Assembly (NCBI GenBank): GCA_004321915.1
Contig: SCQE01000021.1
Span: 62,001 to 126,000 of the forward strand
Source: Nitrospirota bacterium
Lineage (GTDB): Bacteria; Nitrospirota; Thermodesulfovibrionia; Thermodesulfovibrionales; Dissulfurispiraceae
Length of the DNA stretch: 64,000 nucleotides
Reading direction: 5' to 3'
In this document: positions 29,508 through 52,288 of the stretch, in pieces
Numbering within the stretch: the first letter of the stretch is position 1
How the letters are laid out: each line of letters opens with the position of its first letter
The notes under the pieces: generated by a model
What the model was told of the DNA's origin: nothing
The model's database searches: none
What the model saw: the letters and a program-made list of their open reading frames with translations, nothing else
Translations under genes and position numbers: made by a program

Positions 29508-29530
29508 AATAAACTACAGGGGAGGTAGTG

Positions 29531-30622
29531 ATGGAACAGATACCACAGGCAAGCATCATGGTATTGCTGAGCGGGCTCGGCGTCGGCGTTCTTTTCGGTT
29601 TTGTCCTGCAGCGCGGCAGATACTGAATGAACTCAGCGTTCAGAGACGTGATCTTTGTGAACGACATTACTTTGCTTAGGGCTTGGCTTTTAGCGCTTTT
29701 GATCGCGATGGTGGGGGCGAACCTCATCGAAGATATGGGCTTTATGGGCGATGATGGTTTGAGAAGACAGGCTTTCGCGCCGATTGCCGCGATAGTCGGC
29801 GGGTATATCTTCGGTCTCGGCATTGTCAGGGCAGGGGGCTGTGGAAGCGGGGTGCTATATAAACAGGGGGAAGGGCAGTTCGCTGCTTTTGTAGCGACCA
29901 TAGGTTTTGGCATCGGTCTCATTTCGACTTTGCATGGTCCGCTGAAGCCTATAAGCCAGTTTCTCAAGAGCTTTAAGGTTTCAGTCGGAGAGGGTGAAAA
30001 CGCCATAGCTTCTCCGGCGTTGTGGGATATAATGGGCGGTCAGGGAATGAAATGGTTTGTGATAAGCGTCTTGGCGCTTATTTTTTTGATGGTCGTGCTT
30101 AGGGGAAAGCCCTTCGGCAAAGGCCCGAAAAAGGGCTGGTCGTGGTCCGTAGGCGGGGCGCTGATAGGCGTGATGGTTGTGCTTGCATGGTGGGCTTCGT
30201 ATTTCTGGGGCGGGCAGGCAAGGGGGCTCTCTTTTTCAGGTCCGCTGTCCGACTTCATCATGTTTGCGCTTACAGCCAACAGCAAGGCGCCTTTTGACCC
30301 GATGTTTGTTCTGTTCGGTATAGGTGTGCTTACATGGAGCGCGTTGTATGTCGTTGGCGTTCCGTTGGGCGCATATCTGAGTGCGAAGGGACTGGGAGAA
30401 TTCAAACTGACGGCGCCTAAAGACCCTCACGAGCTTATGACTGTGTTCGTAGGCGGACTGATAATGGGTTTTGGCGGCGCAGTTGCCGGCGGCTGAACAG
30501 TGGGGCACTCGCTGACAGGTATGTCGGCGCTATCGCTTCAGAGCATAGTGGCAACTATTTTCATAATACTCGGCAACTGGACAATGACCTATTTCATGTT
30601 CATAAAGCCGATGCAGGATTGA
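29531..30622 (+). CDS. YeeE/YedE-family transporter with two in-frame UGA (selenocysteine) codons
   Basis: 363 residues if both UGA codons are read. ATG 29531 has RBS GGGGAGG. The first UGA is codon 32 (29624-29626), within LQRGRY-U-MNSAFRD, where family members have Cys. The second is codon 322 (30494-30496), within GGAVAGG-U-TVGHSLTGMSA, again at a family Cys. Reading continues to TGA 30620 through the conserved GNWTMTYFMF end. The third family Cys (GGCGSG, residue 104) is unchanged. In thiosulfate-transporting YeeE these three cysteines line the substrate path. Both UGAs are followed by SECIS-like hairpins. About nine membrane segments. Likely substrate: thiosulfate or a selenium/sulfur anion (inferred). 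Ordinary gene calling gives only 29627-30496. Confidence 0.88.
29637..29663 (+). promoter_or_regulatory. SECIS-like hairpin for yedE UGA-32
   Basis: Lower stem CGTTCA / TGAACG (29637-29642, 29658-29663), a mismatch, then AGA / TCT, with apical loop C-GTGAT-C. The stem starts 10 nt after the UGA; the loop GU (29648-29649) is 21 nt after it, within the range known for bacterial SECIS elements. Confidence 0.7.
30510..30529 (+). promoter_or_regulatory. SECIS-like hairpin for yedE UGA-322
   Basis: CGCTGACA (30510-30517), loop GGTA, TGTCGGCG (30522-30529): 8 bp with one G-T wobble. The loop GU is 22 nt after the UGA. Confidence 0.75.
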
Positions 30623-30764: not shown

Positions 30765-31016
30765 ATGAAGAAAGCACTCGCACTCATAGTTGCTCTTCTG
30801 TTTGCATTTGCTATGACCTCTATCTCTTTCGCAGCAGACGCTCCGAAGGCTGATAAAAAGGCTGAGGCCAAGGCTGACGACAAGAAGGCCGACAAAAAGG
30901 CTGACAAGAAGGCCGACAAGAAGGCTGACAAGAAAGACGACAAAAAGGCCGACGATAAGAAGGCAGAGCCTAAGAAGGACGACAAGAAGAAAAAGAAGGC
31001 CATCGAAGGCTGCTAA
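30765..31016 (+). CDS. Exported Lys/Ala/Asp-rich repeat protein
   Basis: 83 residues; RBS GGAAGGAGG. A signal peptide (to about SISFA/A, residue 23) precedes a mature part made almost only of K, A, D and E in KADKKADKK-type repeats, encoded by near-repeated 12-base units. It ends in IEGC, a single terminal Cys. Highly charged and probably disordered in the periplasm. Function unknown; metal, polyphosphate or cell-wall binding would be guesses. Transcription from a sigma-54 promoter and a strong terminator mark it as its own unit. Confidence 0.82.
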   Translation: MKKALALIVALLFAFAMTSISFAADAPKADKKAEAKADDKKADKKADKKADKKADKKDDKKADDKKAEPKKDDKKKKKAIEGC

Positions 31017-31071: not shown

Positions 31072-31090
31072 ATTGAGACGAGGAGACCAT

Positions 31091-31351
31091 ATGGGAAAAA
31101 GGTTTGGATTGTGTGCTGTATGTGCGGGTTTGGTTGTTTGCCTGTCTTGTTCTTTTGCGCTTGCCGAAACCTTCAGGGGCACCGTCATAGCCATAGACGG
31201 GAATGCTATTACCGTAAGAGACCACAAAGGCCAAGAGACCACCGCAATAGTGGATGTTAAAGACATAAAAACAGGGGACATGGTGGAGTTGAAGGACGGC
31301 AAGGTCATAAAGGCCGGGGGCAAGAAAAAAAGCGCGGTAGAGGCCAAATGA
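31091..31351 (+). CDS. Small exported beta-barrel-like protein
   Basis: 86 residues from ATG 31091, RBS GAGGAGA. Signal peptide to about FALA/E (residue 25). The mature part resembles short OB/SH3-like repeats (FRGTVIAIDGNAITVRDHKGQET, VKDIKTGDMVELKDGKV), common in small periplasmic proteins of unknown role, and ends in a basic tail. uvrA begins 18 bases later, so it may be cotranscribed. Confidence 0.78.
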   Translation: MGKRFGLCAVCAGLVVCLSCSFALAETFRGTVIAIDGNAITVRDHKGQETTAIVDVKDIKTGDMVELKDGKVIKAGGKKKSAVEAK

Positions 31352-50628: not shown

Positions 50629-50685
50629 GTTAAACTCCATAAGGAGTTGTTCAGCTAATATCAACGCAGAAGGGGAGGTGTTTTG

Positions 50686-50982
50686 ATGAAACTCGGTGTT
50701 TTCATGAGCGACTACAGAAGCGGTTCCGACGTCATCGAGAGGCTGCAGGCTGAGAAGCTCGGCATTATCCTCGTAGGAAACGGGGTATATCACGCTGCTG
50801 CAAAGGAAAACGGCGGCGCGTCTTCGGTTCTTTCCAAACAGGCCACGTTCTATGTGCTTGTCGAAGACCTTGAGAGTCGCGGCTTTACCGCAGCCAACAT
50901 TGACAGCCGCGTTAAGGTCGTCAATTACGGCGATGTCGTTGATTTGATCTTCAACGATTACGAAAAAATAATCTGGATATAA
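50686..50982 (+). CDS. DsrH/TusB-like sulfur-relay protein
   Basis: 98 residues from ATG 50686 (RBS AGGGGAGG). Small Rossmann-like DsrE-superfamily fold, with GIILVGNGVYHAA and FYVLVEDLESRGF typical of DsrH/TusB. The usual active Cys of DsrH is not evident. First gene of a four-gene sulfur-carrier operon with two DsrE-type proteins and TusA. Confidence 0.8.
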   Translation: MKLGVFMSDYRSGSDVIERLQAEKLGIILVGNGVYHAAAKENGGASSVLSKQATFYVLVEDLESRGFTAANIDSRVKVVNYGDVVDLIFNDYEKIIWI

Positions 50983-50994
50983 AAGGAGGCAGTG

Positions 50995-51357
50995 ATGAGC
51001 AAACTTACAATCGGCTGTTTTTCATCCCTTGTCGGCTCCATGTCTCTCGACTTTGCCGTAAAGCTCTCGAAGGCTGCGGTTGAAAAGGGGCATTCGGTTG
51101 ACATGTGGGTCTCGGGAAACGCCACCATGCTTTCCAAGAAGGGGCAGAGGGCGTTTAAGGACTATTCGGCCCTTGCAAAGCCCCTCGAAGAGCTCTTTGC
51201 AACAGGCAAGTTTCAGGCAACGGCTTGCGAAGCCTGCGCAGAGGCAAGGGGATATCACAAGGACGATACGATGGCAGGCTTTAAAAGACACAGCATGGAC
51301 TGGTACCTTGCGAGCTGCTTCAGCGCCGACAAGGTGCTGCATATAGGAGGTGACTAA
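50995..51357 (+). CDS. DsrE/TusD-like sulfur-transfer protein
   Basis: 120 residues from ATG 50995 (RBS AAAGGAGG). DsrE fold with candidate persulfide cysteines in TACEACAEARGY and a C-terminal SCFSADKVLHIGGD. Works in the family as a sulfane-sulfur acceptor between TusA and downstream partners. The next gene starts 1 base after its stop. Confidence 0.85.
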   Translation: MSKLTIGCFSSLVGSMSLDFAVKLSKAAVEKGHSVDMWVSGNATMLSKKGQRAFKDYSALAKPLEELFATGKFQATACEACAEARGYHKDDTMAGFKRHSMDWYLASCFSADKVLHIGGD

Positions 51358-51358
51358 A

Positions 51359-51772
51359 ATGGCGATTAAAAAATATGCTTTTGTGGTCAAAAGCCTCCCG
51401 TACAAAATAGAGAGCTCAAGGCTTGCAATGACCCATGCCATATCGAGCCAGACTGTCGAGATATACCTTGAAGACGGCGAAAATGTCGAGCCGGTCATAT
51501 GTTTTATCGGTGACGGCGTATTGAACTGCGTCAAGGGGCATCAGGCCATGAAGCATTACGGCGTCACAAGCCTCGAACAACACATAAAGAACGCTCTTCT
51601 GCTCGACCTTAAGGTCCTTATATGCAAGGAGGATGTGGACAAATTTGGACTCTCTGAGGCATCGCTCATTATGGATGCCGAGGACATCGGCGGCGAAACC
51701 AAGGCCCAAGTGGTCCCTTACAGTGAAATACAGCAGGCTTTGGACTCTGCTGACCATCTTTTGTTCAATTAA
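51359..51772 (+). CDS. DsrE/DsrF-like protein
   Basis: 137 residues from ATG 51359 (RBS ATAGGAGG). DsrE-superfamily signature: KKYAFVVKSLPYKIESSRLAM, VEPVICFIGDGVLNCVKG with a Cys near residue 60, and KVLICKEDVDKFG. Completes a DsrEFH-like triad with the two preceding genes. Confidence 0.85.
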   Translation: MAIKKYAFVVKSLPYKIESSRLAMTHAISSQTVEIYLEDGENVEPVICFIGDGVLNCVKGHQAMKHYGVTSLEQHIKNALLLDLKVLICKEDVDKFGLSEASLIMDAEDIGGETKAQVVPYSEIQQALDSADHLLFN

Positions 51773-51795
51773 TTAAACCAAGGAGGTTTAAAATT

Positions 51796-52047
51796 ATGGC
51801 AGATTTAAAGTCACAAACCCCTACGGAGACGCTGGACGTTCTCGGCAGGGTATGTCCTTACCCGTTGGTGCTTACCAAGAAGCAGATGGAAAAGCTCGAC
51901 AGCGGCTCGCTTCTGAAGATACTTTGTGACGCCCCGGCGTCTGCTGAGGATTCTATCCCCCGTTATGCGGAGAAGCAGGGTTTCGATATCGAGGTTGTAA
52001 AGGTTGAAGATAAAGGCTTTTGGGAGATTTATCTCAAAAAGAACTAA
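51796..52047 (+). CDS. tusA: TusA-family sulfur (selenium?) carrier
   Basis: 83 residues. CPYP motif with the carrier Cys (LGRVCPYPLVLTKKQM) and PASAEDSIPRYAEKQGF are standard TusA. It shuttles persulfide, and in some organisms related YedF-type proteins handle selenium, to target proteins. With the DsrE-type genes it forms a relay; a YeeE/YedE transporter, its common partner elsewhere, is at 29.5 kb. Confidence 0.93.
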   Translation: MADLKSQTPTETLDVLGRVCPYPLVLTKKQMEKLDSGSLLKILCDAPASAEDSIPRYAEKQGFDIEVVKVEDKGFWEIYLKKN

Positions 52048-52102: not shown

Positions 52103-52288
52103 TTACATTTCTGTTATCGTTATTGCTGACGGAGGACAAACGCTCAGACAAGTTTCGCAGAAAACGCATTCGGAAGTCTGATAAGGATCGGATTTCCCGT
52201 CAACCATTCTGAAAACTTCCTGCGGGCAGTTGTTAACGCACTCTTCGCAGCCTTCGCATTTGGCCGCGTCGACATTTACCATGTACAT
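52103..52288 (-). CDS. Two-cluster [4Fe-4S] ferredoxin
   Basis: 61 residues, RBS AGGAGGTG. Two CxxCxxCxxxCP motifs (CEGCEECVNNCP and CVFCETCLSVCP) hold two [4Fe-4S] clusters. Soluble electron carrier. Convergent with the TusA operon; monocistronic. Confidence 0.94.
   Translation of the reverse strand: MYMVNVDAAKCEGCEECVNNCPQEVFRMVDGKSDPYQTSECVFCETCLSVCPPSAITITEM

Follow-up and report, generated by a model that had tools for sequence, protein, structure and literature searches.

The question raised by this locus is whether a YeeE/TsuA-type transporter gene crossed by two in-frame UGA codons encodes a protein with selenocysteine (Sec) at two positions of its substrate path and, if so, what such a protein would carry. 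The gene lies in a stretch of 64,000 nucleotides (the window) from a metagenome-assembled genome of Thermodesulfovibrionales (Nitrospirota). A first, sequence-only reading had placed the UGAs at codons 32 and 322, within RGRY-U-MNSAFRD and AGG-U-TVGHSLTG, and had reported an unchanged Cys motif, GGCGSG. Read-through translation of 29531–30622 agrees with these positions and, with TGA as U, yields a single frame with U32, U322, and a terminal TGA364; both flanks and the Cys motif (within AGGCGSG) are found as claimed. The gene has the following features.

29519–29525, + strand: Shine-Dalgarno sequence GGGGAGG, before the ATG at 29531 (from sequence)

29531–30622, + strand: yeeE/tsuA-type transporter gene, read through two UGAs; 363 amino acids, inferred Sec32-Cys104-Sec322

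29624–29626, + strand: UGA codon 32, inferred Sec; aligns with C22 of Spirochaeta thermophila YeeE (StYeeE), the third, cytoplasmic-side cysteine

29840–29842, + strand: TGT codon 104, the middle cysteine, kept; StYeeE C91; Cys in 94/94 orthologues

30494–30496, + strand: UGA codon 322, inferred Sec; aligns with StYeeE C293, the first, periplasmic-side cysteine

30620–30622, + strand: terminal stop TGA (codon 364), in the same frame as UGA32 and UGA322

Cys104 is the sole cysteine of the window protein, as it is in 15/16 Sec-Cys-Sec proteins (forms are named here by the states of sites 32, 104, and 322). The protein matches PF04143 (Sulf_transp) over model positions 1–310 of 310 with 234.6 bits, against a cut-off of 27.

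Alignment to the solved StYeeE places residues 32, 104, and 322 at C22, C91, and C293, and the two UGA sites are thus C22 and C293, cysteines of the family as had been proposed. C22, C91, and C293 are the three conserved relay cysteines of YeeE (PMC11073785), and a Cys-to-Ser change abolishes the function of SoxT1B (PMC11582611). Since C22 is the exit and C293 the entry, the Secs would stand at both ends of the path with a Cys in the middle. An AlphaFold model, computed from 31 aligned clade members with Sec modelled as Cys, has a mean pLDDT of 88.4 and a pTM of 0.87; Foldseek gave significant E values for YeeE entries only (6LEO, E 3.6e-21, TM 0.92 by target length). The S. thermophila TsuA/YeeE (6LEO, 6LEP, 8J4C, 8K1R) shares the fold, the three relay positions, and the conserved surrounding motifs at ~35% identity, but carries Cys at all three positions, and the window gene lacks its adjacent YeeD/TusA. 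SoxT1A and SoxT1B of Hyphomicrobium denitrificans are likewise full-length YeeE-like proteins with three conserved essential cysteines that serve sulfur import or sensing; they differ in being all-Cys and linked to sox/sHdr genes (PMC11582611).

Orthologues were sampled from 60 relatives and then from 396 genomes of the phylum, from which 94 were extracted and aligned. Across these 33,634 codons, 16 genes have an internal TGA at column 32 and 31 genes have one at column 322, and 47/47 internal UGAs fall in Cys columns. The only other in-frame stops are one TGA (column 360) and two TAGs, which are the genes' own ends; there is no internal TAA or TAG in the 94 orthologues, and no internal stop in the remaining matches of the phylum search outside this alignment. 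Close relatives with stops or unrelated residues at both positions would have refuted the sequence-only reading, and this is not what they have: sites 32 and 322 hold UGA or Cys, never another residue. A chance origin of the UGAs is ruled out by the concentration of all 47 at two columns, and assembly error by their recurrence in 16 genomes, one of which (G006) is a single contig scored 100% complete.

The 94 orthologues comprise 62 Cys-Cys-Cys genes and one that is N-terminally cut, 15 Cys-Cys-Sec genes, and 16 Sec-Cys-Sec genes; Sec-Cys-Cys occurs in none of them. The Sec-Cys-Sec genes, 66–84% identical at the protein level, have their two UGAs in matching columns, and the named relatives at 66–83% identity are metagenome-assembled genomes of Nitrospirae or Thermodesulfovibrionales. 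A search of a plasmid collection returned only matches below 60% identity, those listed being below 30%. A maximum-likelihood tree computed without the two trait columns (32 and 322) unites the Sec-Cys-Sec genes with the Cys-Cys-Sec gene of genome G324 in one group (SH-aLRT 99) that is sister to a 12-gene Cys-only clade. The other Cys-Cys-Sec genes lie in separate groups, with at least four changes forced by strong branches. This pattern suggests, as an inference from the tree, that Sec replaced Cys at the entry before it did so at the exit.

Within the Sec-Cys-Sec group dN/dS is 0.08 for codons 2–31, 0.05 for codons 33–321 (where synonymous sites are near saturation), and 0.04 for codons 323–363. 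Because dN/dS is low in all three segments, translation is inferred to run past both UGAs. Each UGA had also been credited with its own SECIS-like hairpin bearing GU at 21 or 22 nt. The spacing is confirmed in the sequence, and covariation and strong synonymous constraint back the hairpins at both sites.

29637–29663, + strand: SECIS 1; stem CGUUCAGAGA / UCUUUG(UG)AACG, apical loop CGUGA at 29647–29651, GU 21 nt after UGA32

30510–30529, + strand: SECIS 2; stem CGCUGAC / GUCGGCG, loop AGGUAU at 30517–30522, GU 22 nt after UGA322

The codons AGA GAC GTG ATC TTT 3' of UGA32 are identical in 16/16 Sec-Cys-Sec genes and vary freely in Cys forms; AGAGACGTGATCTTT after UGA32 is common to the same 16/16 genes, where Cys forms use many synonyms. 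The synonymous difference is 0.22 in the 13 codons 3' of UGA32 versus 0.57 over the whole gene. Pairs of SECIS 1, with its loop CGUGA, show compensatory changes from G-C to A-U and from C-G to U-A, while in SECIS 2 GAC...GUC is exact in 29 distinct sequences, with G-C/C-G and C-G/U-A exchanges below it. The Cys forms, compared at both sites, do not keep the SECIS bases. Paired cells amount to 96.7% for SECIS 1 and 91.6% for SECIS 2, with double-sided changes in 6 and 19 cells, respectively. No shuffled alignment (0/500 for either SECIS) reaches the observed pairing or covariation score, and sliding the helices lowers pairing to 23–58%; since the shuffles take no account of relatedness, more weight rests on the slid helices and on the contrast with the Cys forms. 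RNAalifold, unprompted, folds the same helices at both sites. Compared with Rfam at gathering thresholds, the window yielded no match, a result that says little for short bacterial SECIS elements.

The gene of G324 (L060/L078, G324:C113:2404-3474), inside the double-Sec clade, has UGC in place of UGA32. In its SECIS 1 the 5' arm and the loop persist, but the 3' side of the stem is disrupted (AGAGACGTGATCCTG). This gene is a natural reversion of Sec32 to Cys, with SECIS 1 decaying once the Sec is gone.

The genome itself (3.63 Mb, 99.6% complete) contains selA (616 bits), selB (357 bits, cut-off 242), and tRNA-Sec (71 bits); absence of selA, selB, and selC, which would have counted against the sequence-only reading, is thereby excluded. 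selB is above cut-off in 30/30 genomes whose copy of the gene has a UGA, weak evidence as a contrast, given that 74/80 tested genomes have selB. A 289-amino-acid open reading frame beginning at 29627 would suit a pseudogene or split gene in which the UGAs are stops and translation re-initiates at the ATG right after UGA32, but this very improbable account is rejected on the purifying selection on both sides of the UGAs and the covarying SECIS elements, along with the fact that 16 genomes share both UGAs and the lack of internal TAA or TAG. A general recoding of UGA as some non-Sec amino acid has a negligible chance and is likewise rejected, since the gene's own stop is TGA, internal UGA occurs at Cys columns only, and the Sec machinery is present. 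It is therefore highly probable that UGA32 and UGA322 both encode Sec, although incorporation itself is inferred, without a protein or selenium measurement.

The substrate is less easily assigned. The NCBIfam TsuA models NF052577 and NF041049 score below cut-off (247.7 of 400 and 148.1 of 645 bits), so that thiosulfate cannot simply be assumed. The selenium YedE models TIGR04112 and NF033796 are also below cut-off (45.2 of 200 and 83.4 of 350 bits). Further evidence comes from two sets of genes on the same strand.

30765–31016, + strand: small Lys-rich secreted protein with a C-terminal ...KKAIEGC tail, downstream of the transporter gene

50683–52047, + strand: DsrH-, DsrE-, and DsrF-like genes with TusA, a cassette 20 kb downstream of the transporter gene

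Homologues of the EGC-tail protein, or proteins sharing its tail, lie directly downstream in 13/14 Sec-Cys-Sec loci with enough sequence. EGC-tail proteins also follow several Cys outgroup genes. The family (homologues include L045, L051, and L066) matches no Pfam family above cut-off, and its EGC is invariant. It is a candidate periplasmic carrier of sulfur or selenium, its C-terminal thiol presumably resembling the carrier arm of SoxY. Right after this gene, a second small secreted protein (31073–31351) carries a GTVxxIDGNxITVRDxKGxE domain, which in relatives is fused to the EGC tail; the pair in the window resembles a form of that protein that was split or duplicated.

In 7 Sec-Cys-Sec genomes the transporter gene is immediately preceded by a DsrE/F/H-like trio, and in one more by the F-like gene alone; two Cys outgroup genes also have the trio. 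Only the E-like member nears a Pfam cut-off, and the F and H labels follow from order and size. The trio is absent beside the window's own copy. The products of the downstream DsrH-DsrE-DsrF-TusA cassette are possible cytoplasmic acceptors by inference; a ferredoxin-like open reading frame follows the cassette on the other strand (52103–52288). The genome also contains dsrA and, on contig C37, a distinct YTD-like cluster whose long YedE is all-Cys. Published clusters pair YeeE-like transporters with DsrEFH-like sulfurtransferases in the same way, many of the type II subtype 1 genes being from Nitrospirota, but the paper describing them does not mention selenium.

The neighbours (DsrEFH-like trio and EGC-tail protein) favour import of sulfane sulfur or thiosulfate, and the gene is probably, though far from certainly, a sulfur importer with Sec at the relay ends; computation establishes the read-through frame, the two sites, the hairpins, the Sec machinery, and the conserved neighbours, and Sec incorporation, direction, substrate, and the acceleration of the end steps are all inferred. 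SelA/SelB/SelC would decode UGA32 and UGA322 as Sec, each through its own SECIS. Most likely, a reduced or sulfane sulfur anion (thiosulfate, polysulfide, or similar) would bind at the entry Sec322 on the periplasmic side, pass Cys104 mid-path, and be released at the exit Sec32 to a cytoplasmic acceptor of the TusA/DsrEFH type. At neutral pH the two selenolates would be ionised, and as stronger nucleophiles than thiols they may speed binding and release at the two ends.

An all-Cys paralogue complicates this assignment. A Cys-only copy from the sister clade is present in 7/16 Sec-Cys-Sec genomes, and in G006, G018, G026, and G041 a Cys paralogue sits between LysR_Sec_metab (NF040786) and yedF (TIGR03527), with no EGC-tail gene beside it. 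Representatives of both neighbours are above cut-off (318 bits against 250 for LysR_Sec_metab, 208 against 110 for YedF). G041 is without the Sec form. The window's own genome has no close Cys paralogue; LysR_Sec and a YedF-like gene are on its contig C84. In Methanococcus, the LysR_Se orthologue HrsM represses Cys isoforms when selenium is present, and YedE is co-distributed with selenium use (PMC5322559). The yedE transcript of Methanococcus maripaludis rises by 5.3 log2 on selenium depletion, and deletion of yedE has no clear selenium phenotype (PMC11097638). Because of the LysR_Sec/yedF neighbours and the behaviour of HrsM and yedE in Methanococcus, the simplest reading of the gene pair is inferred to be a selenium-controlled switch between Sec and Cys isoforms. 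The all-Cys paralogue flanked in this way (L074–L077) may thus be a selenium-regulated Cys back-up (a candidate selenium-starvation isoform), or may serve selenium uptake.

The same observations lend some support to an unlikely but serious possibility, that the double-Sec protein is a dedicated selenium importer, itself selenium-dependent, with the Cys paralogue as its starvation isoform: the sister copy adjoins LysR_Sec_metab and YedF in four genomes, and yedE elsewhere follows selenium use and selenium depletion. The Sec form itself, however, adjoins DsrEFH-like and EGC-tail genes rather than selenium genes, the selenium YedE models stay under cut-off, the Methanococcus deletion is without clear selenium effect, and an importer needing two Secs would fail when selenium is scarce. 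The locus is related to the selenium YedE/YedF system (TIGR04112, NF033796, TIGR03527; PMC5322559) through the transporter family and the Cys sister paralogue adjoining YedF and LysR_Sec, but the Sec form lies outside that system's locus. A selenium-species substrate is neither shown nor excluded, given that the genes next to the Sec form point to sulfur and the Cys paralogue stands in a selenium-metabolism locus.

The Secs could instead guard the relay against irreversible oxidation rather than add speed, the substrate being the same one that the Cys forms carry. Sec can in general be oxidised reversibly, and its two sites here mark the entry and the exit of the path. This is improbable, however, as the hosts seem to be anaerobic sulfate reducers and Cys suffices in many relatives.

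Sec itself is not new to the family. YeeE/YedE (PF04143) is already listed among selenoprotein families, with a single Sec replacing a relay Cys in the motif GUxSG of WP_012471001.1 (PMC13188914, PMC9312934). The window protein, in contrast, is full-length with two Secs, in GUTVG and YUMNS, and GUxSG is not met. Four half-size PmpA-like proteins (L148, L149, L150, L151) have an in-frame UGA in LADGUPSGHGLSG or LAGGUTSGHGLSS. As judged from their sequences, the published motif fits these proteins (GUPSG/GUTSG) and not the window gene. Assignment of GUxSG to the middle cysteine (GCGSG) was provisionally set aside on the evidence of the half-size relatives alone, which have their GUPSG/GUTSG Sec at the C293 site. 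Another PF04143 lineage (L146, G010:C2:106436-107368; L147, G019:C123:59777-60703) has just one in-frame UGA, located at the exit (QRGRFU); its middle residue is Cys and its entry residue Asp.

A full-length double-Sec YeeE-type transporter was not found in the searchable literature, which excludes supplements, where an earlier mention is possible; YeeE is not named in the main texts of deep-Sep, Zhang 2008, and Peng 2016. Within the searchable literature, the new part is the presence of two Secs in a full-length transporter. Standard gene callers would cut the gene at its UGAs, so it is easily missed in Nitrospirota genomes.

Most known selenoproteins are redox enzymes, and a transporter with two Secs in its substrate path is very unusual; in the window protein, as in no fewer than 15 relatives, selenium, sulfur, and selenium would follow one another along the pore. 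The natural Cys-Cys-Cys, Cys-Cys-Sec, and Sec-Cys-Sec forms, with the revertant and a solved relative, offer a ready-made test of what selenium contributes to sulfur transport, and the same series could tell a YeeE relay by hydrogen bonds from one by chalcogen exchange. A more speculative and doubtful proposal is that the Sec-Cys-Sec line is a chalcogen relay, in which sulfane sulfur (or selenium) crosses the membrane by exchange rather than free diffusion, loaded from the periplasmic EGC-arm carrier, unloaded to DsrEFH/TusA, and switched with the all-Cys isoform under a selenium-sensing LysR regulator. If true, this would be a selenium-tuned transmembrane chalcogen transfer system of a kind not described before.
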